Part shown: piece after piece, positions 9,383 through 35,096 of the stretch
Layout of the letters: each line of letters opens with the position of its first letter
How positions within the stretch are numbered: the stretch's first letter is position 1
Assembly (NCBI GenBank): GCA_029233925.1
Contig: JARGOX010000012.1
Coordinates: 124,001 to 188,000, forward strand
DNA: 64,000 nt
Reading direction: 5' to 3'
Source of the DNA: Rhizobiaceae bacterium
GTDB taxonomy: Bacteria; Pseudomonadota; Alphaproteobacteria; Rhizobiales; Rhizobiaceae
Translations under genes and position numbers: made by a program
The notes under the pieces: generated by a model
Database searches by the model: none
What the model saw: only the letters and a program-made list of their open reading frames with translations
What the model was told of the DNA's origin: nothing

Positions 9383-9573
9383 CGCCGGTTTTACGGCCGC
9401 CTGACGATAACTCTTCATTCCTGCGTTCCACCAGCCGCAATACCGGTCACGTCCGTTCACAAGCCGGTGACCCGGCCTTCGTGCGGGTTGCCCTGGGCTA
9501 TCGACAGCGCCAAGTGCCTGAGCAGGTAGGGACAGAACTCTGCACAGAACCTCAGCACAGGATATAGCCAGCC

Positions 9574-10404
9574 ATGCCGATTGATCGCCGTACTCTCATC
9601 GCAGGATTTGCAGGCCTGTTGGCCGTCTCGGCGCTCAAGCCGCTTGCCGCAACCGCCGCAATGAATGATTTTCGTCCGCAAGGCCAATCGAAGGTCGACC
9701 ATGGCGCCTTCGATGTTCTCCTCAAAAGATACGTCAAACCGGATGCACAGAGCTATAACCGGGTTGATTATCGCGGAATAAAGAAAAACCTTTCTGGGCT
9801 GAAGGCCTATATTGCTGCGCTGGAAACGGTCAATCCGGTTTCCCTGTCGCGAAATGAAGCCCATGCCTATTGGATCAATCTTTATAATGCCAAGACCCTG
9901 CAAGTCGTTGCGGAAGCCTATCCCGTGACCTCGATCAAGAAGATCAATCTCGGCGGCTCATTTCTGTTCGGTTCCGGCCCCTGGAAAGCAGATCTCTTGC
10001 GGGTTAACGGCACAGATTTGTCGCTTGACGATATAGAGCATCAAATCATTCGGCCGCTTTTCAAGGACGAAATGTCCCACTACGGGCTCAACTGCGCCTC
10101 CTATTCCTGTCCCAACCTTGCCACCAGCGCGTTCACCGGAGCCAATGTTGACGCGCTGCTGCGTCAAAACGCAATTGACTACGTCAATCATCCCCGCGGT
10201 GTGACCGTCAAGAATGGCCGCATCACGGCTTCGAAAATCTATTCCTGGTACGCCGAAGATTTCGGCGGCAAGAACAGGCTCAAGCAGCATTGGGCATCTC
10301 TGGCAAGCCCGGCCAAGGCAAAGGAGATCCGTTCAGCCTCGATTTCCAATTATACCTATGACTGGAGCATCAATGGAATTGAAAGTGCGCAGACAGACAG
10401 TTAG
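9574..10404 (+). CDS. DUF547 protein with twin-arginine-like signal
   Basis: This 276-aa protein starts MPIDRRTLIAGFAGLL, a paired-Arg then hydrophobic N-terminus that looks like a Tat signal peptide. The body matches DUF547: HAYWINLYNAKTLQ near residue 91, LSLDDIEHQIIRP near 150, and HYGLNCASYSCPNL near 169. The conserved Cys/His pattern resembles transglutaminase or peptidase-like folds, but no activity is established. AGGATATAGCCAGCC precedes the ATG. It probably acts in the periplasm. Confidence 0.82.
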   Translation: MPIDRRTLIAGFAGLLAVSALKPLAATAAMNDFRPQGQSKVDHGAFDVLLKRYVKPDAQSYNRVDYRGIKKNLSGLKAYIAALETVNPVSLSRNEAHAYWINLYNAKTLQVVAEAYPVTSIKKINLGGSFLFGSGPWKADLLRVNGTDLSLDDIEHQIIRPLFKDEMSHYGLNCASYSCPNLATSAFTGANVDALLRQNAIDYVNHPRGVTVKNGRITASKIYSWYAEDFGGKNRLKQHWASLASPAKAKEIRSASISNYTYDWSINGIESAQTDS

Positions 10405-10425
10405 CAATATCATAGGCGCATAGCC

Positions 10426-11337
10426 TCACAACAATGGCCTGGCCTCGATACGAGACTCACGCAGCGAGGACCATGTGTAGAGTGCCAGGGCAATCCAGAT
10501 CAGACAGAATGCTGCAAGCTGCCACATGGATAATGGTTCGTGGAATACGAAGATGGCGGCCAGGAAAATAAGGGACGGCGTCAGGTACTGCATCAGGCCG
10601 AGCGTCGAAAAGCGTAAGAGTTTCGCCCCGAAGGCGTAAAGAATGAGCGGTACAGCAGTGAACGGCCCGGCGATCAGCAGCAAGCCGGTATCGCGTGCAT
10701 CACCGGCCATAAAGTGGCCCATGCCGTCCATATCCAGGAAGTACAGAACCAAAAGTGACGGCACACTCAGCAGCAGGACCTCGAGAAAGAACCCCTGGCT
10801 TGGGCCGATCGGCAAGGTCTTGCGCAGGAAACCATACATACCGAAGCTGAAGGCCAGCGCCAGTGAGACCCATGGCAATCCGCCGGCCGTCACCGTCAAC
10901 AACACAAGGGCCGCGCAAACAAGGGCGATAGCTGCCATTTGCAAGCGGTTGAAACGCTCTCCAAGGAACACGGCCCCAAGCACGATGTTTACAACCGGGT
11001 TAATGTAATAGCCCAAAGCGGTTTCAACCGTTTGCTCATTGGCAATCGCCCAGACATAGATGCCCCAGTTGATCGATATGAATATGGCTGTTACCGCCGC
11101 AAGCAACAGCGTTCTGGGATGTCTGAAGGCCAGCTTGAGGTCTGCCGTGCGTCCCAGCAGCAAAATGAGGATGCCTGCAACAGGAACAGAACATAAAATT
11201 CGGTAGGCAACCACCTCAACGGGTGGAATATGGCTCACCATTTTCATGTAGAGCGGCATCACCCCCCAGAGAAGGTAGGCTCCCATCGCGAAGCCAAAGC
11301 CCCGCAATGCGGAATTGTCTGTTTCCTTGCCACCCAT
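10426..11337 (-). CDS. rarD: RarD/EamA-family permease
   Basis: This 303-aa inner-membrane protein has about ten hydrophobic helices. The N-terminal sequence GFGFAMGAYLLWGVMPLYMK and later NWGIYVWAIANEQTVETALG and YYINP are typical of RarD in the drug/metabolite transporter (EamA) superfamily. RarD is named for chloramphenicol sensitivity, but substrates are not known for most members. It is convergent with the DUF547 gene, 21 bases apart. A transporter role is firm; the compound moved is not. Confidence 0.88.
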   Translation of the reverse strand: MGGKETDNSALRGFGFAMGAYLLWGVMPLYMKMVSHIPPVEVVAYRILCSVPVAGILILLLGRTADLKLAFRHPRTLLLAAVTAIFISINWGIYVWAIANEQTVETALGYYINPVVNIVLGAVFLGERFNRLQMAAIALVCAALVLLTVTAGGLPWVSLALAFSFGMYGFLRKTLPIGPSQGFFLEVLLLSVPSLLVLYFLDMDGMGHFMAGDARDTGLLLIAGPFTAVPLILYAFGAKLLRFSTLGLMQYLTPSLIFLAAIFVFHEPLSMWQLAAFCLIWIALALYTWSSLRESRIEARPLL

Positions 11338-11416
11338 GGCGGGACACTTTCGATTTTCGAGACAGGATTATTCCATACAGAGCGACAAAGCACCCGGCAT
11401 CAAGCCAATGTGCAAA

Positions 11417-13015
11417 TCATGTGCAGCCTGTCTTCAGCAATTTGTAGGTAACCGAATCCATCAGAGCCTGAAATGACGCATCAATAATATTATCCGAGAC
11501 CCCGACGGTCCACCATCTCTGGCCCGTGGTATCACGCGATTCGATCAGAACCCTGGTGATGGCTTCAGTGCCGCCATTGAGGATACGCACCTTGTAATCC
11601 GTCAACTCCAGATCTTCGATCTCTTTTTGATAGCGGCCAAGGTCCTTGCGCAGCGCGATATCCAGTGCGTTGACCGGACCATTTCCCTCGGCCACAGACA
11701 TTTTGGTTTCACCATGGACCTCGACCTTGACGATTGCCTCCGACACGGTTTTCACATTGCCGATGGCATCAAAGCGTCGTTCCACCATGACCCGAAAGGA
11801 CTCGACCTTGAAATACTCCGGCACGCGGCCAAGCGTTCGCCGGGCAAGCAGTTCGAAACTGGCATCGGCTCCCTCATAGGCGTAGCCGCTGGCTTCATGT
11901 TCCTTGACGATGGAAATCAACCGGTCAAGGCCGGGATTATCCTTCGAGACTTCAATGCCCCTGCTCTTCAGCTCGTTGATGAAATTCGATTTTCCACCCT
12001 GGTCAGACACCATGACGCGGCGTTTGTTGCCAACGGTTTCAGGCGGCACATGTTCATAGGTGCGTGGATCCTTGAGCAATGCAGAGGCATGAATACCGGC
12101 CTTGGTGGCAAAGGATGACGTTCCGACATAGGGCGCCTGGCTTTCGGGCGAACGGTTCAGCAATTCGTCAAATGCATGGGAAAGGCGTGTCAGCCCTTTC
12201 AGTTTGTCTGCATCGATGGACGTGACAAAGCGTTTGTTCCAGACAGGTTTGAGCACGAGGTTGGGGATCAGCGTCACAAGGTTGGCATTGCCGCAGCGTT
12301 CGCCGATGCCATTCAATGTTCCCTGGACCTGGCGCACACCCGCCTCAATGGCCGCCAGCGAATTGGCAACCGCCTGACCGGTGTCATCATGGGCATGAAT
12401 GCCAAGGCGATCTCCGGCCAAGCCGCCCGCCATGACAGTTTTGATGATGCTGGCGATTTCGGTCGGCTGGGTGCCGCCATTGGTATCGCACAGCACAACC
12501 CAGCGGGCTCCGGCCTCATAGGCGGTCCCGGCGCAGGCCATGGCATAATCCGGGTTTGCCTTGAAGCCATCAAAGAAATGTTCGCAATCGACCAGCGCTT
12601 CCTTGCCGGCGGCGATCGTTGCTTCGACTGATACCCTGATGCAATCGAGGTTTTCCTCGTTGGATATGCCGAGCGCCACATCCACATGGTAGTCCCAGCT
12701 CTTGGCAACAAAACAGATGGCATCGCTTCGCGATTGCAGCAGCGCGGCAAGTCCGGGGTCATTGGAGGCTGAGACCCCTGCCCGCTTGGTCATGCCAAAT
12801 GCAACCATGGTGGCCTTCGACATGCGGTTTTGCTCGAAAAAGGCCGTATCTGTGGGATTTGCTCCCGGATAACCGCCCTCGACATAATCAAGACCGAATT
12901 CGTCCAGCATGTGGGCAATGGCAATTTTGTCTTCAACGCCAAAATCCACACCCGGTGTCTGCTGGCCGTCGCGCAGCGTAGTGTCGAACAGAAAGATTTT
13001 TTCGCGCGCGCTCAT
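11417..13015 (-). CDS. cimA: (R)-citramalate synthase
   Basis: This 532-aa protein belongs to the isopropylmalate/citramalate synthase family. FDTTLRDGQQTPG near residues 10-22 holds the metal-binding Asp and catalytic Arg; HAHDDTG near 220 gives the metal-binding His pair, and the C-terminal third is a LeuA-type allosteric dimer domain. The N-terminal motif and length fit the CimA group, which condenses pyruvate with acetyl-CoA in the threonine-independent isoleucine route. Its ATG overlaps the TAA of cysS by one base (TAATG), so translation is coupled. 2-Isopropylmalate synthase is the alternative, but the sequence looks CimA-like. Confidence 0.9.
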   Translation of the reverse strand: MSAREKIFLFDTTLRDGQQTPGVDFGVEDKIAIAHMLDEFGLDYVEGGYPGANPTDTAFFEQNRMSKATMVAFGMTKRAGVSASNDPGLAALLQSRSDAICFVAKSWDYHVDVALGISNEENLDCIRVSVEATIAAGKEALVDCEHFFDGFKANPDYAMACAGTAYEAGARWVVLCDTNGGTQPTEIASIIKTVMAGGLAGDRLGIHAHDDTGQAVANSLAAIEAGVRQVQGTLNGIGERCGNANLVTLIPNLVLKPVWNKRFVTSIDADKLKGLTRLSHAFDELLNRSPESQAPYVGTSSFATKAGIHASALLKDPRTYEHVPPETVGNKRRVMVSDQGGKSNFINELKSRGIEVSKDNPGLDRLISIVKEHEASGYAYEGADASFELLARRTLGRVPEYFKVESFRVMVERRFDAIGNVKTVSEAIVKVEVHGETKMSVAEGNGPVNALDIALRKDLGRYQKEIEDLELTDYKVRILNGGTEAITRVLIESRDTTGQRWWTVGVSDNIIDASFQALMDSVTYKLLKTGCT

Positions 13016-19331: not shown

Positions 19332-20189
19332 ATGACCTGTCTGACACTTGCGCATAGAAGCCTGGTTTGCATCAGCGGCGAAGATGCCCAATCGCTGATG
19401 CAGGATGTCATCTCCTGTGATGTCGACAACCTGCCCGATGGCATCGTTCGGCCGGGCGCCCTGTTGACCCCGCAGGGAAAGATAATGTTTGATTTTCTGG
19501 TCTCACGTGATGGCGAAGGCCGGTTCCTCTTTGACATGAACACAACGCAGATTGCAGCTTTTGTTCAGCGCATGACCATGTACCGGTTGCGCGCCAAAGC
19601 GCAAATCAGTGCGCTTGAAGACCTGTCCGTCCAGGCCGTCTGGGACATGGATGCGAAGCCAGGTTTCCTGCAAGACAGCCGGTTTGTTGAAGGCATCCCC
19701 GTCTACCGGGTCTACGGCCAGGCACTGGCATGCGACGCACTGCAGGCCGATTATGATCTGTTGAGGATTGAAGCAGGCGTCGCCGAGGCGGAAGCCGATT
19801 ACAAGCTTTCCGATGTTTTTCCCCACGACGTCCTGATGGACCTGAACGGCGGGGTATCCTTCAAAAAGGGTTGTTTCGTTGGTCAGGAGGTTGTCTCGCG
19901 CATGCAACATCGTGCAACCGCGCGGCGTCGCGTCGTGAGCGTGCGGGCCCATGCACCGCTGCCCGATACCGAAACACCGATCATGGCGAATGGCCGCGCG
20001 GCAGGAACGCTCGGGACTGTTGTCGGCGATCGCGGGCTGGCATTGGTGCGCATCGACAAGATTGGAGCGGCCCTGGACGCCGACCAGCCCATCTTGGCCG
20101 GTGACGTCGCTGTGACGATCACCCTGCCCGCCTGGACGAAGCTTGTCTTTCCAAGAGCCGAAAGCACTACCGAGGCTGACGGGGACTGA
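19332..20189 (+). CDS. ygfZ: YgfZ/GcvT-like folate-binding protein
   Basis: This 285-aa protein is related to the glycine-cleavage T-protein fold and binds tetrahydrofolate. The family signature K-G-C-F-V-G-Q-E is at residues 179-186, with C181 the conserved Cys. It supports Fe-S cluster maturation and certain tRNA modifications and acts in the cytoplasm. The N-terminus SLVCISGEDAQSLMQ is typical. The next gene begins five bases after its stop. Confidence 0.9.
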   Translation: MTCLTLAHRSLVCISGEDAQSLMQDVISCDVDNLPDGIVRPGALLTPQGKIMFDFLVSRDGEGRFLFDMNTTQIAAFVQRMTMYRLRAKAQISALEDLSVQAVWDMDAKPGFLQDSRFVEGIPVYRVYGQALACDALQADYDLLRIEAGVAEAEADYKLSDVFPHDVLMDLNGGVSFKKGCFVGQEVVSRMQHRATARRRVVSVRAHAPLPDTETPIMANGRAAGTLGTVVGDRGLALVRIDKIGAALDADQPILAGDVAVTITLPAWTKLVFPRAESTTEADGD

Positions 20190-21347: not shown

Positions 21348-22340
21348 ATGACGGCGGGGTCGACAGCAATTGCAATCGGTTTGAACGCGGCCATCGTCAC
21401 AGTGATGGAGAATGAGCCGCAGATTCTCGTCATTTCCATGGACGAGGCCAGGGCCACGAATGGCGCTTTGCTGGACGGGTTGCCGCTTGGTTCCTTTGAT
21501 CCCCTGCATCACCGGACGTTCGAAACCGGATTGCGCGCATCGGTGGAGGAGCAGACAGCCCTGCATCTGGGTTATGTCGAACAACTCTATACATTCGGCG
21601 ACCGGGGCCGACAAAAACAACCCGATGACACCGGACCGCACATCATATCCGTCGGCTATCTGGCGCTGACCCGCGATGACGGCAATCAGAGCGGCGCACT
21701 GCAGCGCGCGGGTGCCGCCTGGCACAAATGGTATGGTTACCTGCCATGGGAGGACTGGCGCTCCGGACGCCCGCCGATGCTGGACGAAATCATCATGCCG
21801 GCCCTGAAAGACTGGGCAAACAAGCCCCAAAATGCGGACAGCAACCGGCATCTTCCAAGCCGCAAATCGAGATTGCGGCTGGCCTTTGGCGACCATGATT
21901 TCCCCTGGGATGAGGAACGTGTTCTGGAACGCTACGAAATCCTCTACGAAGCGGGCCTGATTGAAGAGGCTGTCAGCGATGGTCGTATCGCGCAGACAGG
22001 ACTGTCCGGCGAACTGGGCCGTCAAATGCGGCTTGATCACCGGCGCATATTGGCAACCGCCATCGCGCGGTTGCGTGGCAAGTTGAAATACCGCCCGGTG
22101 GTTTTCGAATTGATGCCACCGGAATTCACCCTGACCGCACTGCAGTCAACCGTCGAAGCCATTTCCGGGCGCCACCTGCACAAACAGAATTTCCGACGCC
22201 TTGTGGAAGGCGCGGAACTGGTCGAACCGACCGGACACACCAGCGTCGCCACAGGTGGTCGTCCGGCCGCGCTTTACCGGTTCCGAAGAAAGATATTCGA
22301 AGAGCGCCCCGCCCCCGGAATCAAGGTCGGCGGACGGTAG
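21348..22340 (+). CDS. NadQ/NrtR-like regulator: NUDIX-type sensor plus winged helix
   Basis: This 330-aa protein has an N-terminal NUDIX-fold half and a C-terminal winged-helix half (from about residue 225: RGKLKYRPVVFELMPPEFTL). That layout is shared by NrtR and by the COG4111 group, which I recall being called NadQ in Alphaproteobacteria. The catalytic NUDIX box is not recognisable, so it probably senses rather than hydrolyses an NAD-related ligand. The C-terminal KQNFRR and GRPAALYRF are typical of the DNA-binding domain. Its likely target, nadABC, lies 15 kb away with a strong palindrome upstream. The family is firm; the name and target are inference. Confidence 0.78.
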   Translation: MTAGSTAIAIGLNAAIVTVMENEPQILVISMDEARATNGALLDGLPLGSFDPLHHRTFETGLRASVEEQTALHLGYVEQLYTFGDRGRQKQPDDTGPHIISVGYLALTRDDGNQSGALQRAGAAWHKWYGYLPWEDWRSGRPPMLDEIIMPALKDWANKPQNADSNRHLPSRKSRLRLAFGDHDFPWDEERVLERYEILYEAGLIEEAVSDGRIAQTGLSGELGRQMRLDHRRILATAIARLRGKLKYRPVVFELMPPEFTLTALQSTVEAISGRHLHKQNFRRLVEGAELVEPTGHTSVATGGRPAALYRFRRKIFEERPAPGIKVGGR

Positions 22341-22371
22341 GTCTCGCACAATTGCCGGGATTACTCAAAGT

Positions 22372-23436
22372 TCAAGTGGCCCGCTTTCTCATGCCGTCAT
22401 TCGCAGCACCCGAGGGAACCAAAGCCCTGACCAGGGTCTTCATGTCCAGAACCCCAATGGGCTTGCCGTCACCCATGACGGTGTAACTGTGACCGGTATC
22501 CCCGTTTGATCTGGAGATGATTGTCTCCAACGTGTCTTCCGCATCGACTTCACCGGATACAATCACATGGCCTGCCTTCTCTGCAGGTGTCATGATGGAA
22601 CGGGCGCGCAGGACCCGCGCACGATTGATGTCGCTGATAAAGTCGACGATATAGGGATCATTGGGGTTCAGGAGAATTTCCTGTGGCTCGCCCTGTTGTA
22701 TGACGATACCGTCCTTCAGGATCACAAGGTGATCTGCGAGTTTCAACGCCTCATCAAGGTCGTGGCTGATGAACACAATTGTCTTTCTCAGTTCCTGTTG
22801 GAGTTCCAGCAGAAGGTCCTGCATGTCTGTCCTGATCAGCGGATCAAGTGCGGAGAAGGCTTCGTCCATCAGCATGATCGGCGCATTTGAGGTCAGCGCC
22901 CGGGAGATGCCGACTCTTTGCTTCATGCCGCCGGAAAGTTGATGCGGATACTGATGCCCCTGACCTTTCAGGCCTACCCGCTCCAGCCACTCATGAGCAG
23001 CCTTTTCGTAACCCGCCCTGCCTTCGCCGCGCACCGCCTGCGCCATGCCGGTATTTTGCAGGACAGTTCTATGCGGCAGCAGGGCGAAATGCTGGAAAAC
23101 CATAGACATCTGCATGCGCCGCATTTGCCGCAACCGATCCTCCCCGAATTCCAGCACGTTCTCGCCATCGACCCAGATTTCGCCTGCCGTCGGCTCGATC
23201 AGCCGGTTGACATGCCGGATCAGCGTCGATTTGCCGGAACCCGACAAGCCCATGATGACCGTGATGTCGCCGGCATGCATATCGACGTTGATATCGCGCA
23301 ATCCAAGCACATGGCCATGACTTTCCATGAGTTCGGACTTGCTCATGCCGTCCAGGACATGCTTCATCGCATCCTGCGGTGCTGCTCCGAATACCTTGTA
23401 CAGGTTTCGGATGGAGATGCTGATTTCCTTAGGCAT
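22372..23436 (-). CDS. proV: Betaine-type ABC importer, ATPase
   Basis: This 354-aa ATPase belongs to the ProV/OpuAA/ChoV group. It has Walker A GLSGSGKS, signature LSGGMKQR, Walker B IMLMDEAFS and a C-terminal regulatory tail of CBS type (GHSYTVMGDGKPIGVLD). The second ATG is preferred: GGGAG sits directly against the first and six bases from the second. It is the last gene of an eight-gene leftward unit and converges with the NadQ-like gene. The ProV label reflects family, not proven substrate. Confidence 0.88.
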   Translation of the reverse strand: MPKEISISIRNLYKVFGAAPQDAMKHVLDGMSKSELMESHGHVLGLRDINVDMHAGDITVIMGLSGSGKSTLIRHVNRLIEPTAGEIWVDGENVLEFGEDRLRQMRRMQMSMVFQHFALLPHRTVLQNTGMAQAVRGEGRAGYEKAAHEWLERVGLKGQGHQYPHQLSGGMKQRVGISRALTSNAPIMLMDEAFSALDPLIRTDMQDLLLELQQELRKTIVFISHDLDEALKLADHLVILKDGIVIQQGEPQEILLNPNDPYIVDFISDINRARVLRARSIMTPAEKAGHVIVSGEVDAEDTLETIISRSNGDTGHSYTVMGDGKPIGVLDMKTLVRALVPSGAANDGMRKRAT

Positions 23437-23448
23437 TTTCATCTCCCT

Positions 23449-24507
23449 TCAGTGACGACCGACGCTGGTCGAGGCATTCACTCTTGCCAGCGCTGCCTTT
23501 GTCACGCGGTCAAGAATGACAGCAAGCAACACAATGCCGAGACCGGCAACGAGGCCTACGCCAAGTTCGAGGTTTCTGATGCCACGCAGCACCAGAACGC
23601 CGAGTCCCGGGGCCGAAACCAGCGAGGCAATAACCACCATCGCGAGACTCATCATGATGGTCTGATTGACCCCTGCCATAATGTTGGGAAGGGCCAGCGG
23701 AATCTGAACACCGAACAGCTTCTGACGCTTCGTCATGCCGAATGCATCGGCTGCCTCGATCACCTCCTGATCGACGAGACGGATGCCCAGATCGGTCAGG
23801 CGGACAACCGGAACGATCGCGTAAAGGATAATCGCGATTCCATAGAGCTTCGGTTCGGTGACCGAGAACAGGAAAATCAGTGGAATGAGATAGACGAAGG
23901 TCGGCAACGTCTGGAGCATGTCTAGGACCGGGATCATCAGCCTTTGCATCCTGTCACTGCGGGACATGGCAATCCCGATCGGCACACCGAGCAAAACGCA
24001 CAGAAAGGCGCAAACGAAGATGATGGAGAGGGTCTGCATGGCGTAATCATAGTGGTCTATGAACGCCAGAAACAGCAGAGCGCCAGCCACAAATGCCATC
24101 AGCCGAACGGATCTGGAAGCGACATAGGCAAGCGTTGCAAGAAAAAAGATCATCAGCCACCAGGGCGTCGCGGCAAACAGGTAAAGCGCGCCTTCCAGCA
24201 GCCAGCTAAGCGGCTGGGTAAGCGGATCGAGCACCGCTTTGAGGCCATCCTTGATGCCCAGAAAGCTGTTTTCCACGCTCTTTGTCATGTCTCGTGTTCG
24301 TGCGAACTGCGCACATGCGCGGTTGAGCTCGTCGAGGGAAGGAAATGGCAGGTTCCAGATCGAATCCAGAGCAAACCCGTCTTCAGCGCCGCCCGTTTTC
24401 TTCCTGGCCAGCAATTCCGCCATCGTCATGGGACCATCTGAACTGCCTTTCTCGCCACACCAGGCGCGCAAGCCCAGTCCGTCGAAAAGGAAATCATACG
24501 TCGCCAT
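23449..24507 (-). CDS. proW: Betaine-type ABC importer, permease
   Basis: This 352-aa inner-membrane protein has a BPD-transporter permease domain (about 130-345). The EAA-like loop EVIEAADAFGMTKRQKLFG contacts the ATPase. A roughly 115-residue N-terminal extension precedes the first helices, as in ProW rather than the shorter OpuAB. The ATG at 24507 has GGGGAGAACGCC before it; the longer frame is unlikely. It ends 12 bases before proV. Confidence 0.88.
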   Translation of the reverse strand: MATYDFLFDGLGLRAWCGEKGSSDGPMTMAELLARKKTGGAEDGFALDSIWNLPFPSLDELNRACAQFARTRDMTKSVENSFLGIKDGLKAVLDPLTQPLSWLLEGALYLFAATPWWLMIFFLATLAYVASRSVRLMAFVAGALLFLAFIDHYDYAMQTLSIIFVCAFLCVLLGVPIGIAMSRSDRMQRLMIPVLDMLQTLPTFVYLIPLIFLFSVTEPKLYGIAIILYAIVPVVRLTDLGIRLVDQEVIEAADAFGMTKRQKLFGVQIPLALPNIMAGVNQTIMMSLAMVVIASLVSAPGLGVLVLRGIRNLELGVGLVAGLGIVLLAVILDRVTKAALARVNASTSVGRH

Positions 24508-24577
24508 GGCGTTCTCCCCGGTTTTATTCTTTTCCCAAGAAAGGGGCGAAGCCGATGGCCTCACCCCTCCTGTTTTA

Positions 24578-25540
24578 TCAATCGAACAGGGCGGAGAGTT
24601 TCTCGCGCGCTGCGTCGTTGACCCAATTCTCCCATGTGGATTTGTTCTCTGTCAGGAAGTGAACGGCGGCCTCTTCCGACGAGGCCCCATTGTCTGCCTG
24701 CCAGGCGAGTAACTGGCTGAGCCCCTGCGAGGTAAACGATATCTTGCTGACAAGATCGAAGATTTCCGGATTGTTTTCGGCAAAATCAGCGGTCACGACC
24801 GTCAGAACCGGAGCAGCGGGGTATGCCGATTTGGCCGGTGACTTGCAATCAACGGTCTGGTTGCAGGCATGGATCTCCGCATCATGAGGCCCCATGTCGA
24901 CGGGCACCATGTTGTAGCGGCCAAGAACTGCAGTTGGACCGTACATATAGCCGAAGAAGGGTTCCTTGTTTTCGTAGGCAGAAGCCATGGCCGCCGAGAG
25001 GGTTTCACCGGAACCGTGGTTGAAAACCTCCATGCCGTGCTTGTCGAATTCGAAAGCCTTTATCAGATTGTCGTTGGCGATGCGGCAACCCCAGCCGTCA
25101 GGGCAGTTGTGAAATTTCCCACCAACCAGAGCCGGATTTGCGAGAACCCCATCAATCGTGGCCAATTCGGGGTGTTGCTCAACGAGGTAGTCCGGAACCC
25201 ACCAGTTCTCGGTGCCGCCATCTGAAAATACATCCGTGGCTTTTTTCACCTTTCCTTCGGCTTCAAGCTTGGTGTAGAGCGGTGCTGAGTTGATCCAAAG
25301 CTCCGGCACAACGTCCGGTTCGTTGTTCTCGGCAAGCGACGTGATTGCAGTGGTGGTAGCCGAAGGCACGAGCGTCACTTCGCAACCATAGCCCTGGGTC
25401 ATCAGGAATTCAGTGACCTTGGTGATGAACGATGCCGAAGCCCAGTTCATCTCGGCCAAAGAAACCTTCCCGCATTCGGCATGCGCGACGCCAGGAAGGG
25501 TAAAGGCACCCAATGCGATCGCAAACAGCAATTTTTTCAT
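24578..25540 (-). CDS. proX: Betaine-type ABC importer, substrate-binding protein
   Basis: This 320-aa periplasmic protein has a clear signal peptide (MKKLLFAIALGAF...AHA). The body fits the OpuAC/ProX group with several Trp residues placed to build an aromatic cage: MNWASAS, ELWINS, NWWVPDY and DGWGC. Such cages hold quaternary ammonium groups, so the ligand is probably a betaine-like cation. Two paired-cysteine regions (CPDGWGC and the CNQTVDC segment) may be disulfides. GAGAAAAGAT precedes the ATG. The degradative genes upstream suggest import for catabolism rather than osmoprotection alone. Confidence 0.88.
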   Translation of the reverse strand: MKKLLFAIALGAFTLPGVAHAECGKVSLAEMNWASASFITKVTEFLMTQGYGCEVTLVPSATTTAITSLAENNEPDVVPELWINSAPLYTKLEAEGKVKKATDVFSDGGTENWWVPDYLVEQHPELATIDGVLANPALVGGKFHNCPDGWGCRIANDNLIKAFEFDKHGMEVFNHGSGETLSAAMASAYENKEPFFGYMYGPTAVLGRYNMVPVDMGPHDAEIHACNQTVDCKSPAKSAYPAAPVLTVVTADFAENNPEIFDLVSKISFTSQGLSQLLAWQADNGASSEEAAVHFLTENKSTWENWVNDAAREKLSALFD

Positions 25541-25615
25541 ATCTTTTCTCCCAGTTGGTCTTTCATGAAAGTGTCGCCGGGCCGAATGGCCGGGCATGAT
25601 TGGAATTTGAAGGCT

Positions 25616-26290
25616 TCAGTCATTGTCACCTTCCTCTCCACCCGCTCCGGCCTGCGAACGGGCCGAGGTCGGAACCGTCGTCCGCAATGCCAGGGCGTTC
25701 AGTTCCCCGTACTGCGCATTGCATATTTCTGCGTGGTGGAATTGCGACCACATCGGCATGGCGCGCCGCACATTTTCGCACGCAATTGTCACATCAACGG
25801 GTTTGCAAGTATCCACAGAGCTTTCGATAAGCGGAGGCTGCTCCGGCTGCAAAAAAACCTGATTATCCGTCCAGAAAACGCCAATGGGCCGGGCCAGGAA
25901 ATTCGCTGCACGCGCTACGAACGGTACGACAAGAAGCGGCTGTGCGACCGCCACGCATTCTACCGGGTGGGTGGACGGTCCTTCCTGCAAGGTCGCAAAA
26001 TCGGCAATGGCTATACCCGTGCGCAACGGACAAAGCTGGCCAACAGCAGCCCAGCGGCCTCGGGACGGCAATGGAGCGCAGGCGCGCGCGCCGTTCAGCA
26101 CCGCCAGGATTGTTCCAGCCCAGTCCAGACCGGCACGCGACAGCCAAACCGAAGCAAATGCCGCCTCTTCAGCCTCGCCCCATTCGTAACCGGCGCCGCG
26201 CGCAGCGCGATAGGTCAGCGACGATATTTCCGAGAGCGACAGGAAGATGCTGTCGGGGCCGGCAACGGATTCGGGTGTGATCGCGTTCAT
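25616..26290 (-). CDS. DUF3726 protein
   Basis: This 224-aa protein matches DUF3726, known mostly from Alphaproteobacteria. The recognisable block is LSLSEISSLTYRAARGAGY then EWGEAEEAAFASVWLSRAGLD (residues 20-62). No catalytic motif or signal is seen and no biochemical function is known to me. AGGTGATCGA precedes the ATG, which begins four bases after the 559-aa gene ends, so the two are probably made together. Its place between putative catabolic enzymes and the importer suggests an enzymatic or accessory role in the same pathway. Confidence 0.8.
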   Translation of the reverse strand: MNAITPESVAGPDSIFLSLSEISSLTYRAARGAGYEWGEAEEAAFASVWLSRAGLDWAGTILAVLNGARACAPLPSRGRWAAVGQLCPLRTGIAIADFATLQEGPSTHPVECVAVAQPLLVVPFVARAANFLARPIGVFWTDNQVFLQPEQPPLIESSVDTCKPVDVTIACENVRRAMPMWSQFHHAEICNAQYGELNALALRTTVPTSARSQAGAGGEEGDND

Positions 26291-26294
26291 TCGA

Positions 26295-27974
26295 TCACCT
26301 TCCACCGATTTCGTCTGGATAGGGCAGTCCCTGAAACAGGTTTATGCGCACCCACCGGTCGGACCGCGGATCGAAGCGCGTGGCGCCGAAGAAGGCGAGC
26401 TTGCAACGCAACATGTCAATTGGCATGAGATCGGCCGAGATCAGGTTATCCTGAATTTCCGCGAAGGGGCGGTGGGCCGATAGCTGCACCCGACGAATCG
26501 CGCTTCTATGCTCGGGTTTTAGCAGAAGCAGCCGTGCCACCGGCGTATTCGAGGGACATTCCTGCAGCGCCTCATTCAAGGCCGCAACCTGCCGTCCGGT
26601 GTCCAGAGGCAGTTCGCGTTCTGCGCCCGGTTCCTCGAAGCGTTCGCCCAACCGCGGCTCGAGCTTATCCTCGGAAACATACCAGAAACGCGCGGTATCT
26701 GCTGCATTGCCGTAGTCAGGCCGCAGCGCCCAGTCGTAACGGCTGCAGATCAAGGCTTGCAGTTCACCCGCGCTCATGGAACCGTCGAGATTGGTTGCAG
26801 GACTTTCGTCTGCTGCCATGTATTGCGCCAAATCGTCAACAAGGTCGCCATGGGGTTCAAGCATCAGCGAAACCAGCGACTCCTGCGCTTCAACCGGCAG
26901 CGCCGCTTCGCTCCAGCGCCACAGCGCATCCCACGGACGTTCCTGTGTTCTGTCCCATACCGTTCGGACATGTTGCGCCAGCAGGTCCAACCCGCTGCGC
27001 AGCGCTGCGAGTTTTTCTTGTTGCAGCGCGTGCTCGCTGTGCCACTGTCGTGCGTTTTCGATCGCATCAATCAGCGCCCCGTCAAACCCGGCGGAAGCCT
27101 GCGGCGAAACGCTGGTCTGGCTGCGCACGCGGGCCAGGGCCTCTTCTCGCGCCATGATCCAATTGTTGAGCAGGACGGGATGGCGCACCAGGAACGGCGC
27201 CATGCCCAGGCCGGTCGAATTTCCGACACCCAACGCCTTTCGATTGACCGCGCTCAATCGCACCGCCGCATCGCCACCACGTATCCTGGCCTGATGTTCG
27301 ACGATATCGACCGAGAACGAACGGGTAAACCACACCGAGAGCATCTCGGCCTGAAACGGGCACAGCATTTCCGGTCTATCCACGATGGCATGACGATCCG
27401 CCGCACCGAACTTGCCGGACCCGTAGACCGCAGTGGTGCGCATCAGATATCCGGCCCCGGTGATTTGCTCACTATCCGGCTGCAGGCCACGCGAAAGTCT
27501 CTCAACCACATGATCGAACAGTCGCACTGAGCGGTTGGCGCGGCTCAACGACAGTTCCCGGTTGCTGACCCGCCCGGCTTCCTGCAACGGTACGTTTGCC
27601 GCCAGGCGATCAAGATCCGCTGAATAGGGCGTGCCGTCAAAAAGCGCGAAGGTCGCGTCCCAGGCCGTGGCGATCACGCGGTCAGAACGCATTTCGGCAG
27701 GCAAGTCATGGGCAAAACACACCAGCGAATAACAATGCTTGGGACCAATTGCCCGGTAAACGGCGCGCCCAACGCCGCGCGCGTCCAGATCGAACAGGGG
27801 GCGGTCGAAACGCCATTGCTCGTCAACCATCCGCCGCAGAAGAATGCGTAAAAAGGACAAGCGCATCGGATGGGCCGATCCAAGCCGATCAAGCCGCATG
27901 ACTTCGTGAGCGGGGCGGCGATAGGCCATGGTATCGGCCGTTTCGGCAATCAGGTCGGGATCGGCAAAAGTCAT
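26295..27974 (-). CDS. 559-aa protein of unknown family in the betaine operon
   Basis: I do not recognise this protein. It is 559 aa and soluble-looking, with no signal peptide or membrane helix. It has many Arg and acidic residues and long predicted helices, notably about 300-400 (ARQWHSEHALQQEKLAALR). Segments that look conserved include IGPKHCYSLVCFAHDL near 97-112, GSGKFGAADRH near 185-195 and NSTGLGMAPFLVRHPVLLNNW near 252-272. GSGKFG is not a P-loop. AAGGGGGCGCGA precedes the ATG, which overlaps the dipeptidase-like gene by four bases. The strict coupling suggests a core enzyme or subunit of the pathway. Confidence 0.8.
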   Translation of the reverse strand: MTFADPDLIAETADTMAYRRPAHEVMRLDRLGSAHPMRLSFLRILLRRMVDEQWRFDRPLFDLDARGVGRAVYRAIGPKHCYSLVCFAHDLPAEMRSDRVIATAWDATFALFDGTPYSADLDRLAANVPLQEAGRVSNRELSLSRANRSVRLFDHVVERLSRGLQPDSEQITGAGYLMRTTAVYGSGKFGAADRHAIVDRPEMLCPFQAEMLSVWFTRSFSVDIVEHQARIRGGDAAVRLSAVNRKALGVGNSTGLGMAPFLVRHPVLLNNWIMAREEALARVRSQTSVSPQASAGFDGALIDAIENARQWHSEHALQQEKLAALRSGLDLLAQHVRTVWDRTQERPWDALWRWSEAALPVEAQESLVSLMLEPHGDLVDDLAQYMAADESPATNLDGSMSAGELQALICSRYDWALRPDYGNAADTARFWYVSEDKLEPRLGERFEEPGAERELPLDTGRQVAALNEALQECPSNTPVARLLLLKPEHRSAIRRVQLSAHRPFAEIQDNLISADLMPIDMLRCKLAFFGATRFDPRSDRWVRINLFQGLPYPDEIGGR

Positions 27975-28975
27975 TCGCGCCCCCTTGGCAGATCAACCCG
28001 GGCCGGTGCGAAACTGCTTGCGAAAAACCGCTGCCAGTTGCCGCCCATGATTCCCTCGATATCGGCCTGCGCAAGCCCAGCAGCCTCCAGGCCGCGAGCG
28101 ATATTGGCAAAATCCCGGTTGTCGTGAAACCACTCTGGCATGTCCGGAAAACCCGGTGCATCAGCGCTGCCCTCGCCGAAGTCGACTTTTTTTGTCCACC
28201 TTCCGGATCGCATCCATTCGACGACGCTGTCAGGCTGATCCTGGCAAAGGTCCGTGCCAATTCCCAGGCGTTCAGCACCCATCAGATCGGCCGTTCGCGC
28301 GATCATGTCGCAGTAATCCTGCAGTTCACAATGCTCGGCATTTTTCAGATGATGCGGATAGACAGAAAAACCCAACATCCCCCCGGTTTCGGCAAGCGCC
28401 TTGAGCACCCTGTCGGACTTGTTGCGCCGCGCGGGATGCCAGCGTTCCGGATTGGCATGCGTGATCGCTATCGGGCGTGAAGAGCATTCGATGGCCTCAA
28501 GCGTTGAACGCTCGGTGGAATGGCTCATATCAATCACGAGACCGACCCGGTTCATCTCCCCAATCACCTCGCGGCCCATCCGCGTCAGGCCTGTATCATT
28601 GTCCTCGTAGCAACCGGTCGCAAGCAGGGACTGGTTGTTGTAGGTCAGTTGCATAAAGCGCAGGCCGAGCTGGTGAAGAACCTCCACCAGACCGATATCA
28701 TCCTCTATGCAGGAAGGATTCTGCGAACCAAAGAAAATCGCCGTGCGGCCTGTTTGCCGCGCAGTCTTGATGTCTTCCGCCGTAAAGCCCTGCATGATCA
28801 GGCTTGGAAAGCGTTCGAACCAGCGGTTCCAAGTGCTGATATTGTGAACCGTCTCACGGAAGTTCTCGTGGTAGGTTATGGTCACATGAACCGCATCGAG
28901 GCCACCGGCACGCATCTGCCGGAAAATTTTTTCTGACCAGTTGGCGTATTGCAGCCCATCGACAAGCACGCTCAT
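27971..28975 (-). CDS. M19 dipeptidase-like protein with altered metal site
   Basis: This 334-aa protein has the fold-level features of the M19 (renal dipeptidase) family, including LVIDMSHST (H152) and ITHANPE (H173), which supply one metal site. The N-terminal D-G-H-x-D motif reads D6-G7-L8-Q9-Y10, so His and Asp are replaced; the bridging Glu region reads FGSQNP with Gln85. A classic dizinc dipeptidase site is therefore unlikely. The same divergent subgroup (VDGL..., MR.GG) appears, from memory, next to dimethylglycine-demethylase genes in Pseudomonas. It overlaps its neighbours by ATGA on both sides. Possible roles include hydrolysis of a non-peptide amide or ring. Confidence 0.83.
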   Translation of the reverse strand: MSVLVDGLQYANWSEKIFRQMRAGGLDAVHVTITYHENFRETVHNISTWNRWFERFPSLIMQGFTAEDIKTARQTGRTAIFFGSQNPSCIEDDIGLVEVLHQLGLRFMQLTYNNQSLLATGCYEDNDTGLTRMGREVIGEMNRVGLVIDMSHSTERSTLEAIECSSRPIAITHANPERWHPARRNKSDRVLKALAETGGMLGFSVYPHHLKNAEHCELQDYCDMIARTADLMGAERLGIGTDLCQDQPDSVVEWMRSGRWTKKVDFGEGSADAPGFPDMPEWFHDNRDFANIARGLEAAGLAQADIEGIMGGNWQRFFASSFAPARVDLPRGRE

Positions 28976-30423
28976 CCCGCCTGCCCTCCATGGAGGTAAG
29001 AGGTCTTGACGGTTGTGTAGAATTCGACCGCGTATTGTCCCTGCTCGCGCGGCCCGAAGCTCGATGCCCCGCGCCCGCCAAAGGGGACATGGTAATCCGT
29101 TCCGGCCGTGGGCAAATTGACCATCAGAGTGCCGGCGCGCATGTTTGAACGGAAATGCGTGGCCCGTGCGAGGCTGCTTGTCATGATGCCCGCGGTCAAA
29201 CCGAATTCGCTGTCATTGGCGACCGCAATCGCCTCCTCGTAGCTTTGCGTCTTTATAACGCAGGCAATCGGCGCGAACATTTCCTCGCGGTTCATTCGCA
29301 TGTCGTTGGTTGTTCCCGCGAAGACGGCAGGAGCCATGAAATGGCCTTTCGTCGGACGGTCAAGAGCTTCCCCGCCGCACATCAGCTCGGCCCCCTCGGC
29401 TTTTCCAACGTCCACATAAGCAAGATTGCCCGCAAGTTGCGTCGCACTGACGGCTGGGCCGATCTGCGTGGTTTCATCAAGGGCGTTGCCCACGCGCAGC
29501 GCTCTTGCAGCGCTCACCAGTTTCTCGACGAAGGCATCATGAACCGCTTCATGCACAATCAGGCGCGACGCTGCCGTGCATTTCTGGCCGGTGCTGCCAA
29601 ATGCTGCATTCGCCGCATGCGCGACTGCCAGATCGAGATTCGCGTCATCCATGATGAGCATGGGATTTTTCGACCCCATTTCCATCTGAACCTTCGTCAT
29701 GTTGGTCAGCGCCGCTGCGGCAATGCCGCGCCCGACGCCCACCGAACCGGTGAAACTGATCGCATCGATACCCGGATGCTCCACCAACCGCTGGCCGATA
29801 TCATGACCCGGGCCAGCGAGCATGTTGAACAACCCCTCGGGTATGTCCTGCTGGGAAATTATCCGTGCCATCGCGGCAGCGCTGGCCGGCGTAAGATTGG
29901 CGGGTTTCCAGACAATGGCGTTGCCGAAAGCAAGCGCCGGCGCGATCTTCCACGCCGGCGTCGCCACCGGAAAATTCCATGGGCTGATGATGCCGACCAC
30001 ACCGACAGGTTCACGGCGAACATCAATCTCGATTCCGGGGCGCACACTTTGGGCGTAGTCGCCGATCTGGCGCAGGGCCTCAGCCGCGAAATAGGTGAAG
30101 AACTGTCCCGCCCGGTAAACCTCACCCTTGCCTTCCGCCAACGGCTTGCCTTCTTCCCGTGACAGCAAGGTGCCGATTTCACCAGACTGCGCCATCAAGG
30201 CGTTGCCGATTGCCATCAGCACGTCATGGCGTTTCTGGATACCTGCATTCCACCACTGGCGCTGGGCAGTGCGGGCGGCGTCGATGGCCTGATCCAACTG
30301 CGCGAAACCGGCCTGAGCGTGACGACCGATCACGTCGGACAAGTCCGACGGATTGAGGTTTTCCACGTGATCCCGGCTGTCCATCCATTGCCCGGCGATA
30401 AAATTGCGCGTCTCGATCGACAT
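28972..30423 (-). CDS. NAD(P)-dependent aldehyde dehydrogenase
   Basis: This 483-aa enzyme is a complete aldehyde dehydrogenase. Visible are the cofactor segment ISPWNFPVATPAWK, the catalytic Glu in QMEMGSKNP, and the nucleophile C282 in STGQKCTAASR. FGSTGQKCTA resembles alpha-ketoglutaric semialdehyde dehydrogenases of hydroxyproline and sugar-acid pathways, so a dicarboxylic semialdehyde is a reasonable substrate guess. Ribosome site AAGGA lies 12 bases before the ATG. Its stop overlaps the M19-like start (ATGA). Confidence 0.9.
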   Translation of the reverse strand: MSIETRNFIAGQWMDSRDHVENLNPSDLSDVIGRHAQAGFAQLDQAIDAARTAQRQWWNAGIQKRHDVLMAIGNALMAQSGEIGTLLSREEGKPLAEGKGEVYRAGQFFTYFAAEALRQIGDYAQSVRPGIEIDVRREPVGVVGIISPWNFPVATPAWKIAPALAFGNAIVWKPANLTPASAAAMARIISQQDIPEGLFNMLAGPGHDIGQRLVEHPGIDAISFTGSVGVGRGIAAAALTNMTKVQMEMGSKNPMLIMDDANLDLAVAHAANAAFGSTGQKCTAASRLIVHEAVHDAFVEKLVSAARALRVGNALDETTQIGPAVSATQLAGNLAYVDVGKAEGAELMCGGEALDRPTKGHFMAPAVFAGTTNDMRMNREEMFAPIACVIKTQSYEEAIAVANDSEFGLTAGIMTSSLARATHFRSNMRAGTLMVNLPTAGTDYHVPFGGRGASSFGPREQGQYAVEFYTTVKTSYLHGGQAG

Positions 30424-30452
30424 GTTTGTGTCTGTCCTTCCGGTTTTCTCGT

Positions 30453-31457
30453 TCAGGCGTCGCGAATGCGCTGCAGCAGCGCCTCTTCAACGGCAACGCC
30501 CTCAACTTCAATACGTTTGCGATGCGCCGCACGGCGTGCGCCTGGCAGACGCGCCCCGTCCTGCTCTTCAATGCTAGCGCAAAGATGCTCCAGCGATGGG
30601 GCAAAGGCAGCACCGGCGAAGGCATCCGGGTCGATGGCAATGAAGAATTGTCCTGTCGAGGGTGGCCCACCGGCCTTGCCTGAAAAAGGACTTGCCTGCG
30701 TGCTCAGTTTCGCGCCCGACAGTGCCGCGGCAAGAATTTCAACGGTAAGCCCGATACCAAACCCCTTGTATCCACCCGTTGGCCGCATGGATCCACTGAG
30801 CGCCTTGTCTGCATCCATCGTCGGATTGCCGTCAGCATCCAGCGCCCAGTGCGGCTCAATCGACTCGCCCGTCTGTCGGCGCAGCAGAATTTCCGATTTC
30901 GCAATCACACTCGCCGATTGGTCAATGACCAGTTTTGCTGCGCCGTTTGTATCGGGAACCGCGAAAGCGAAGGGATTGGTACCGATTACCGGCTTCGTCC
31001 CGCCTACGGGAGCAATGGAGGCTGGCGCGTGGGTGAAACACAGACCTATCAAGCCATCAACGGCCAGCCGTTCGGCATGGTGGCCCAACACGCCGCAATT
31101 GTAAGAATTGTGCAAGCTCATGGCTCCAATTCCACATTCACGCGCGGACTCGGTAAACGCATCCCATCCGGCATCAATGGCCGGGTGGGCAAAACCGTTC
31201 GCGGCATCAACACGCACCGCGGCTGTCCTGGTTCTTTCCACCCCGGGAATGGCTTCGCCATCGACCTTTCCACAGCGCAGATGTTCAGCATAGATGGGCA
31301 CGTAGAGAAGCCCGTGGCTTCGAATGCCATCGCGCTCTGCCAGACGGGTGGAGCGCGCCATGGAAGCTGCGGCTGTGGGCGTGGCCCCTGCCCGCTCCAG
31401 CGCTTCGCAGGCCATTGTTTCGACCTCGTTGAGAGATAGTTGAAGCATGCCTGACAT
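30453..31457 (-). CDS. Ldh-family (COG2055) NAD(P)H oxidoreductase
   Basis: This 334-aa protein belongs to the malate/L-sulfolactate/delta1-piperideine-2-carboxylate reductase family, a fold unlike classic lactate dehydrogenase. GIRSHGLLYVP carries the conserved His, and VIGTNPFAFAVP and GYKGFGIGLTVEIL are family blocks. Members reduce 2-keto acids or cyclic imino acids, which fits processing of a nitrogen heterocycle. AAGGATACGG precedes the ATG at 31457. It is the first gene of the operon, facing the LysR gene across about 100 bases. Confidence 0.87.
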   Translation of the reverse strand: MSGMLQLSLNEVETMACEALERAGATPTAAASMARSTRLAERDGIRSHGLLYVPIYAEHLRCGKVDGEAIPGVERTRTAAVRVDAANGFAHPAIDAGWDAFTESARECGIGAMSLHNSYNCGVLGHHAERLAVDGLIGLCFTHAPASIAPVGGTKPVIGTNPFAFAVPDTNGAAKLVIDQSASVIAKSEILLRRQTGESIEPHWALDADGNPTMDADKALSGSMRPTGGYKGFGIGLTVEILAAALSGAKLSTQASPFSGKAGGPPSTGQFFIAIDPDAFAGAAFAPSLEHLCASIEEQDGARLPGARRAAHRKRIEVEGVAVEEALLQRIRDA

Positions 31458-31510
31458 CCGTATCCTTAGATTCCGTTGCCCGGACAGTGTTCTGGATTGC
31501 CAGACTTCAA

Positions 31511-31549
31511 TCAAACGAATACTTCTGAAATATATTTCAATTTGTTTGA
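31511..31549. promoter_or_regulatory. Inverted repeats between LysR gene and operon
   Basis: A perfect 14-bp palindrome TGAAATATATTTCA (31526-31539) lies inside a wider pair of arms, TCAAACGAAT (31511-31520) and ATTTGTTTGA (31540-31549), that match at nine of ten positions. The two structures have slightly different centres. This is where a LysR protein would be expected to bind to control both itself and the divergent operon. Confidence 0.6.
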
Positions 31550-31559
31550 AGGAAAAATT

Positions 31560-32480
31560 GTGATTCGTATCGATTCATTGCGGGCATTCATCGTTGTCGC
31601 TGAAACCGGAACGCTGAGAGAAGCAGCCGATCAGCTCAACCGAACCCAATCGGCACTTTCCATGACCCTCAAGCAACTTGAGGCCGAATTGGGCGGTTCG
31701 TTGTTCGAGACTGACCGCAAACGGGATCTCACCGATCTCGGCCATTATGTTCGGCAGGTCGCATTGGATATCGTGCGTGACCATGATCACGGCATTGACC
31801 TGATCAAACGCTATGCAAAAGGCAAATCGGGACGTCTTCGCCTGGTATCGGTTCCCTCGGTTGCCGCCCTGATCCTGCCAGATCTGCTGCAGACATTCCT
31901 GGATAGCCAGAAAGACGCCGAAATTGATCTCGTGGACACGGATAGTGCTGCTGTGCGCAAGGCAATTGCTTCCGGTCGGGCGGACCTGGGCATAGCCAGT
32001 CCCGGCGCGGGCCTGGATGGAATCGAGACCGAATTTCTGTTCAGCGACGAACTCTATGCGGTGTGCCGGAAAGACTGCACTCTGGCACAATGCCGCGGCC
32101 CGCTTGAATGGGGTCAGTTGCAGGACTTCCCGTTGATCATGAACGAAACTCTTTTCCAACTGGAAAGCATTGAATTCAGGAGATTGGCAAGTCATAGCCG
32201 TCTTTCGGCCCGCAACATTCTTTCCCTGCTCGCGATGGTGCGCGCTGGCGCTGGCATCACCATCCTTCCGGGCTTGGCGACTGTCTCGCTCGACCCTGAA
32301 CTCGTGGCGTTACCGCTTGCCGACCCGGCCTGCTTGCGTAACGTTTGCCTGCTGTCGCGTTCAGGTCGCGCACCAAGCCCGATAGCACAAGCCATGCGGC
32401 TGCATTTGCGTAACAGCCTGCCGCTTCTTGCCGGGCGTTACGGATTTATCACCGGACAGGAAAACGGAAATCCAGTTTGA
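31560..32480 (+). CDS. LysR-family transcriptional regulator
   Basis: This 306-aa regulator starts with a winged helix-turn-helix (DSLRAFIVVAETGTLREAA...SALSMTLKQLEAELG), followed by an effector-binding domain of periplasmic-protein fold from about residue 90. A GTG start at 31560 is preferred because AAGGA lies seven bases upstream and homology begins with IRIDSLRAF; the longer ATG frame would run into the operator region. It is divergent from the eight-gene operon and is its probable activator, with a pathway intermediate as inducer. Confidence 0.88.
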   Translation: MIRIDSLRAFIVVAETGTLREAADQLNRTQSALSMTLKQLEAELGGSLFETDRKRDLTDLGHYVRQVALDIVRDHDHGIDLIKRYAKGKSGRLRLVSVPSVAALILPDLLQTFLDSQKDAEIDLVDTDSAAVRKAIASGRADLGIASPGAGLDGIETEFLFSDELYAVCRKDCTLAQCRGPLEWGQLQDFPLIMNETLFQLESIEFRRLASHSRLSARNILSLLAMVRAGAGITILPGLATVSLDPELVALPLADPACLRNVCLLSRSGRAPSPIAQAMRLHLRNSLPLLAGRYGFITGQENGNPV

Positions 32481-34232: not shown

Positions 34233-35096
34233 TCAGTCGATTTCAATATCCAGGCCGATATCCAGCGTCGGCGCAGCCATGGTGATTTTTGAAGTGGATA
34301 TATAGTCCACGCCGGTCTCGGCAACAGCCTTGATTGTGGTGAGGTCAATGTTTCCAGAGGCCTCAAGCTTGCAGCGCCCGTTGTTGATCCGCACGGCTTC
34401 GATCAATTGGGCGGGGTCCATATTGTCCAGCAGGATACAGTCGGGTGCCGCAGCAAGCGCTTCTTCGAGTTGGACAAGCGTATCGACCTCGACCTCCACT
34501 TGGACCAGATGGCCACAATAGGCTTTTGCTGCCTCGATGGCACTGGCGACCCCACCGGCAATGGCAATATGATTGTCCTTGATCAGAACAGCGTCATCCA
34601 GCCCGAAACGGTGGTTTGATCCGCCGCCACAGCGCACAGCGTATTTTCCAACAACGCGCAGCCCTGGAAGGGTTTTACGGGTGCAGCATACGCGTGCATC
34701 GGTGTGGGCGATTTGCGCTGCATAGGCAGCCGTCAGCGTGGCGATGCCGGACAGATGCATGAGAAAGTTCAGCCCGACCCGTTCCGCCGCCAGGATTGCG
34801 CGTGCATTGCCTTCGATGCGCGCCAGAACGTCACCCGGCTCGATCGGATCTCCATCGTTGAATTTCAGTTGTATATCCATCGCCGCATCGAGGGTCCGAA
34901 AGGCACTGGCCAGTAGCGGAAGCCCGGCAACGATGCCCTTTTGCCGGGATACAACATGGACGATGGCGCGCCGGTCCGCTGCAATGGTTGCCTGACTGGT
35001 AATGTCACCGGCCCGCCCCAGGTCTTCTTCCAGGGCTGTTCGAACGCTTTGCTCAACGAGCAAGGGGGACAATGTCGGACGCAGGTTCGTCATCAA
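34233..35096 (-). CDS. nadC: Quinolinate phosphoribosyltransferase
   Basis: This 287-aa enzyme turns quinolinate and PRPP into nicotinate mononucleotide, CO2 and PPi. [10 protein letters not shown] and [13 protein letters not shown], followed by IKDNH, are diagnostic. The C-terminal [11 protein letters not shown] and DYISTSKIT are also typical. The ATG overlaps the nadB stop by four bases, so the three nad genes are one transcript. Confidence 0.95.

Follow-up and report, generated by a model that had tools for sequence, protein, structure and literature searches.

An eight-gene operon in a Rhizobiaceae bacterium with a conserved enzyme core, a betaine-type importer and a probable role in homarine degradation

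The window analysed here is a stretch of 64,000 nucleotides from a Rhizobiaceae bacterium (GCA_029233925.1, contig JARGOX010000012.1, positions 124,001–188,000). Eight contiguous, co-oriented genes occupy positions 22372–31457 of its minus strand, with the gene of a LysR-type regulator diverging from them. From 5′ to 3′ the order is Ldh_2, aldehyde dehydrogenase (ALDH), M19-like, U559, DUF3726, ProX, ProW and ProV. The features, with the evidence for each, are:

30453..31457, minus strand: Ldh_2-family NAD(P)H reductase (Pfam; PDB search, 1wtj; alignment)
28972..30423, minus strand: ALDH (Pfam; NCBIfam)
27971..28975, minus strand: M19-like amidohydrolase-fold protein, first-metal ligands replaced (Pfam; nearest structure 2i5g; alignment)
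26295..27974, minus strand: U559, 559 aa, candidate ring-opening subunit (predicted structure; no Pfam or NCBIfam family)
25616..26290, open reading frame listed from 26305, minus strand: DUF3726 protein, likely partner of U559 (Pfam; predicted fold; adjacency)
24578..25540, open reading frame from 25597, minus strand: ProX-type (OpuAC) substrate-binding protein, DmpX-like (Pfam; PDB; pocket alignment)
23449..24507, open reading frame open from 24564, minus strand: ProW-type permease (Pfam; NCBIfam)
22372..23442, minus strand: ProV-type ATPase (Pfam; NCBIfam)
about 31560..32480, probable GTG start at 31560, open reading frame open from 31476, plus strand: divergent LysR-type regulator (Pfam)
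31526..31539, no strand: perfect 14-bp palindrome TGAAATATATTTCA, inside the 102-bp divergent intergenic gap

All eight genes were open at these coordinates, and their Pfam families in gene order were Ldh_2, Aldedh, Peptidase_M19, none for U559, DUF3726, OpuAC, BPD_transp_1 and ABC_tran; the regulator contained HTH_1 and LysR_substrate. The successive intergenic gaps from Ldh_2 to ProV were 29, −4, −4, 4, 75, 70 and 6 bp, so that the ALDH, M19-like and U559 genes overlap, by 4 bp each time. This bears out the first-pass annotation, which had described an eight-gene operon with an opposite LysR gene, its five tightly spaced or overlapping enzyme genes leading into a full ProXWV-type importer. 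The operon with its divergent regulator is real and far beyond chance, because the same gene neighbours are met again in other genomes. The palindrome is a candidate LysR operator by position only, and promoter-like and terminator-like sites in 22200–31800 were fewer than in shuffled sequences.

The conservation of the operon was assessed by a contig scan for U559, in which at least 591 stretches matched, 582 of them encoding a relative, and the best 80 were taken as loci. Gene presence was counted as matches above score cut-offs that we set, and the counts are depressed by contig ends and sequence divergence. DUF3726 was found in 78 of the 80 loci, M19 in 75, ALDH in 62, LysR in 58 and Ldh in 34; ALDH, M19, U559 and DUF3726 occurred together in 61 and all five enzymes in 27. 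U559 and DUF3726 were neighbours on one strand in 76/80. The core of the operon, here called the cassette, is ALDH, the M19-like protein, U559, DUF3726 and the Ldh_2 reductase. The titles of U559-bearing records were mostly those of Rhodobacterales, including Ruegeria, Shimia, Roseovarius and Paracoccus, and a SAR116 bacterium, Rhodoferax and others were also represented. Relatives of U559 were present in 168 plasmid records, most commonly of Sinorhizobium (64) and Phaeobacter (58), the Sinorhizobium copies among those listed being only about 30 % identical. At E 1e-100, U559 was present in 169 of the 394 genomes of the family sample, drawn from the family of Ruegeria sp. ANG-S4.

The copies in the family sample fell roughly into two sets, one about 53–69 % and the other about 48–53 % identical to the window copy. 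Both sets were represented in some genomes, and they may act on different substrates. A second, distant U559 (33–34 % identity) occurs in the window's own genome (L030, contig C36:38001-58000, at 9888-11603), near an M19-like gene (39 %), an IclR regulator, an SBP_bac_8-type ABC importer and a thiamine-diphosphate enzyme. Plasmid pSymB of S. meliloti 1021 (L040) likewise carries a distant U559 and M19 pair (9001-10623 and 11413-12381; 31 % and 41 %), with an ABC ATPase and an aldehyde dehydrogenase nearby.

U559 matched no family in Pfam or NCBIfam. Its alignment of 52 rows, at 53–68 % identity to the window copy, contained 113 invariant columns, and its structure was predicted confidently (predicted local distance difference test score, pLDDT, 90.2), with no match to the model in the PDB. 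The DUF3726 protein is predicted to have the Ldh_2 fold and appears to lack the nucleotide-binding insert. A large part of Ldh_2 is missing, since 161–197 residues aligned to targets of 313–361 residues. The window protein is also without SHG, the catalytic Ser-His motif of Ldh_2, which appeared in two of the 42 DUF3726 rows. Distant relatives of U559 (28–36 % identity) in some cases adjoin a small partner of their own and other ABC importers. At L029:11788-12459 and L044:10680-11477, a small protein without a Pfam family follows a distant U559 copy; each has a weak profile match to DUF3726, which for L044 lies at the N-terminus and for L029 is a C-terminal AP-T-SR-AG-like motif common to both proteins.

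The window reductase keeps the Ser-His motif (SHG), which was present in 15 of 20 aligned Ldh_2 rows, the other five having ICG. Its best solved relative was delta1-piperideine-2-carboxylate reductase (1wtj; E 1.2e-53 in the PDB search), with which it shares the Ser-His motif. The window operon differs from the 1wtj system in that DUF3726 appears to be a second, shortened copy of the Ldh_2 fold. Near the cassette in L062, L067, L076, L106 and L122 lie diverged Ldh_2 proteins (36–38 % identity) with Ile-Cys in place of the catalytic Ser-His. For ALDH, the best NCBIfam models were 2,5-dioxovalerate and alpha-ketoglutaric semialdehyde dehydrogenase; it is nearest to these C5-semialdehyde dehydrogenases, though below both cut-offs, and it also scored against hydroxymuconic-semialdehyde dehydrogenases. 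M19 dipeptidases have a two-metal site of His-x-Asp, Glu, His and His. No complete site was found in the M19-like protein among 68 aligned relatives: the His and Asp positions of His-x-Asp were Leu and Tyr in 67/68 each, with His and Asp respectively in none, and the Glu position was Gln in 68/68. Two later His and Asp242 were kept in all 68. Like the M19 renal dipeptidases, to whose sequence family it belongs, the protein has two metal-site His and one Asp, but it differs from them at the His-x-Asp and Glu positions. His, Asp and Glu are also missing at these positions from its closest solved relative, 2i5g.

The importer is exchangeable and of betaine type where recognised, because ProXWV, a BCCT carrier or neither was found depending on the locus. 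ProXWV directly follows the core in the window, Pararhizobium, Aminobacter and Shinella. A BCCT carrier lies within or after the core in TM1040, M382, Aliiroseovarius, Sulfitobacter, P. inhibens 2.10 and Tritonibacter, and two representatives were confirmed by Pfam. Across the 80 loci, BCCT matched in 37 and ProX in 6, with either importer in 43; in P. inhibens DSM 17395, no betaine-type importer was present in the gene list of the stretch examined. The window ProX was closest to PDB entry 7yle, which is taken as RnDmpX because the residues named in PMC10030565 fall at the stated numbers. RnDmpX is presented there as the binding protein of the dimethylsulfoniopropionate (DMSP) importer DmpXWV (Li et al. 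2023, PMC10030565), whose genes reportedly lie apart from known DMSP catabolic genes. The two binding proteins belong to one family, are 57 % identical and share six of eight pocket residues (W35, T64, W84, E113, W152 and Y200 in RnDmpX numbering). The window ProX differs from RnDmpX by A153G and W202Y, and its importer sits inside a catabolic operon. Gly153 was present in 12/12 distinct cassette-linked ProX proteins, which span two groups only about 36 % alike, compared with 10/38 other ProX sequences (the rest having Thr 11, Asn 9, Ser 4, Ala 2, Gln 1 and Val 1; Fisher p 5e-6, not corrected for kinship). On sequence, Gly153 marks the binding proteins of the cassette and does not name their ligand; homarine was not among the analogues named in the passage cited on ProX binding.

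The cassette adjoins a tetramer, called ‘sarcosine oxidase’ by annotation or by score, in six loci (L036, L038, L045, L046, L076 and L088, from TM1040, Aliiroseovarius, Shinella, P. inhibens 2.10, Roseibacterium and Shimia), five of which also have an AraC/GlxA-type regulator match. Reference copies of the N-methylglutamate dehydrogenase genes (mgd) were identified by their gmaS/mgs neighbours. For Paracoccus sp. MA and Rhizobium leguminosarum these neighbours were read from the annotations ‘type III glutamate--ammonia ligase’ and ‘glutamate synthase-like’, and for other genomes they were located by tblastn. In a midpoint-rooted SoxA tree of 32 alpha subunits, with some long branches, one side of a branch with support 97/97 comprised 20 rows: all seven cassette-linked copies (the seventh, L132, being a near copy of L046), all seven gmaS/mgs-linked copies and six unlabelled ones. 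The other 12 rows fell outside. By their sequences, the cassette-linked ‘sarcosine oxidase’ tetramers group with mgd. Each label required three changes on the tree, so the linkage was gained or lost repeatedly. Four of the mgd clusters were extended (Aliiroseovarius, TM1040, Shinella and P. inhibens 2.10), and no gmaS/mgs was listed beyond the mgd genes, the gene tables being incomplete; the other two loci had no gmaS/mgs match within their stretch. Because of the four extended clusters, the product looks like N-methylglutamate itself, not methylamine. In the window's genome, mgs, gmaS and mgd-type genes lie together on contig C13 (L164). In PMC13390433, the AraC-type gene tmaR is placed upstream of mgdABCD in R. 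pomeroyi, and Mgd is said, with reference to Ferrer-Gonzalez et al. 2026, to take part in homarine catabolism.

Some of these clusters have further neighbours. On plasmids of P. inhibens, an annotated DMSP demethylase, dmdD and an acyl-CoA dehydrogenase adjoin the cassette in DSM 17395 (L035:12888-18328), and dmdD and an acyl-CoA dehydrogenase adjoin mgd-type genes in M624 (L132:2969-5604). On a plasmid of Shinella sp. WSD5-1 (L266, record 322000-339500), a further set upstream of the cassette-linked tetramer comprises a trimethylamine-methyltransferase-family protein, two glycine-betaine binding proteins, a second Ldh and a mandelate-racemase-family enzyme.

Taken together, the operon probably serves the uptake and degradation of homarine (N-methylpicolinate) under the LysR-type regulator, yielding N-methylglutamate. 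The substrate and all intermediates are inferred here, as are the sequence of the reactions and what U559 and DUF3726 do in it. The nitrogen of homarine carries C2 (with the carboxylate), C6 and the methyl group. As N-methylglutamate retains C2 to C5 and the carboxylate, C6 must leave; cleavage between C5 and C6, with C6 staying on the nitrogen, would therefore give N-formyl-N-methylglutamate 5-semialdehyde (C7H11NO4). This exceeds homarine (C7H7NO2) by 4H and 2O, formally two waters, or O2 with two NADPH. In the proposed sequence, ProXWV would import the zwitterion, and the Ldh_2 reductase with U559 and DUF3726 would reduce and open the pyridinium ring to this semialdehyde. Aldehyde oxidation and amide hydrolysis (deformylation) would then remain, and the operon offers an ALDH and an amidohydrolase-fold protein: ALDH would oxidise the aldehyde and the M19-like protein would strip the formyl group as formate, leaving N-methylglutamate. 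Deformylation is the least secure step because the M19-like metal site is altered. The product would be oxidised to glutamate and a one-carbon unit by mgdABCD, encoded elsewhere (contig C13, beside gmaS and mgs). It is possible, if doubtful at present, that U559 and DUF3726 form a previously unrecognised enzyme, an unmatched fold with a shortened Ldh_2 pseudoenzyme, that opens the N-methylpyridinium ring at C5-C6 without a classical oxygenase, and whose distant relatives serve other pyridinium or betaine-like substrates.

The first-pass annotation had suggested an N-methylated betaine as the type of substrate, an idea that holds, with homarine, trigonelline and proline betaine among its candidates. 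Homarine is the best fit among them because of the mgd neighbours at six loci, the C5-semialdehyde-like ALDH, the 1wtj relative and the published statement on Mgd in PMC13390433; the other two fit less well. Homarine is described as a ubiquitous marine metabolite (PMC13390433), and R. pomeroyi as assimilating it quickly (PMC12817926). U559 was present in 52/54 genomes of the Ruegeria sp. ANG-S4 genus group, a genus with observed use of homarine. Ferrer-Gonzalez et al. are said to have described, in Nat Microbiol in 2026, a homarine catabolic pathway of environmental bacteria with five enzymes and a regulator, homABCDER. Literature searches on homarine turned up no paper with these genes, that article lying outside their reach. 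The window operon is like that pathway in its reported gene number, in the link to Mgd and in the occurrence of U559 in Ruegeria and soil bacteria; in the window the reductase gene leads the operon and an importer is part of it. If it is a homarine operon, it would be a member of the published kind with the importer built in.

Several observations weigh against this assignment. The identity of the operon's genes with the published homarine genes is unproven. With the canonical metal ligands missing, hydrolase activity of the M19-like protein is uncertain. At the cut-offs that we set, Ldh was not found nearby in 46/80 U559 loci, and no ProX or BCCT match was found in 37/80, 31 of which are at least 15 kb long. 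Of the 109 loci L019-L127, many of which are truncated, just six have mgd next to the cassette. Co-occurrence of U559 and mgd is moderate: mgd-type SoxB was present in 73/169 family-sample genomes with U559, compared with 43/225 without, leaving 96/169 without it at our cut-off. Most DMSP-binding residues are kept in the window ProX, and P. inhibens has DMSP-demethylation genes beside the cassette or the mgd genes linked to it.

The last two points suggest DMSP or a similar sulfonium compound as the substrate, which we consider very unlikely: the mgd-type genes linked to the cassette speak for an N-methyl amino acid, Ala153 is replaced by Gly throughout the cassette-linked ProX proteins, and the window operon contains no DMSP lyase or demethylase family by Pfam. 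A homarine operon that releases methylamine is improbable. There, hydration and ring opening would give an N-methyl-2-aminomuconate-semialdehyde-like product, followed by ALDH oxidation and passage of the methylamine to GmaS, Mgs and Mgd. The mgs, gmaS and mgd genes of the window's genome and the ALDH scores against hydroxymuconic-semialdehyde dehydrogenases would suit such a route, but neither the reductase nor the M19-like protein has an evident step in it, and the cassette-linked mgd clusters described above, four extended with incomplete plasmid gene tables and two within their stretch, show no gmaS/mgs.

A different N-methyl heterocyclic betaine is given little weight, whether proline betaine or N-methylproline leading to N-methylglutamate semialdehyde, or trigonelline. 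Importers of these families take betaines in general, ALDH and Mgd would equally serve N-methylproline, and the best NCBIfam model of the LysR protein was the proline-binding PsrA (112 bits against a cut-off of 540). However, no demethylase family was found in the operon by Pfam, and N-methylproline needs neither a reductase nor an amidohydrolase-fold protein. In the trigonelline (tgn) pathway, a flavin oxygenase pair opens the N-methylpyridinium oxidatively, and a semialdehyde dehydrogenase and an N-formyl hydrolase act next. Its step logic is similar to that proposed here for homarine, but the flavin oxygenase pair is absent from the window operon.

Other genes in the window include a CAF17/GCV_T-type folate-binding protein (19332-20189), an NrtR-type winged-helix protein just beyond the operon end (21348-22340) and a quinolinate phosphoribosyltransferase (34233-35096), all assigned by Pfam.

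If the homarine reading is true, a gene set present in hundreds of genomes would be explained, DUF3726 would have a fold and a likely partner assigned to it, and attention would be drawn to an enzyme with no structural match as a subject for biochemistry. The predicted nature of DUF3726 and U559 may be the new part of the finding. The homarine reading would also call for caution, as DMSP may not be the ligand of every DmpX-like binding protein.

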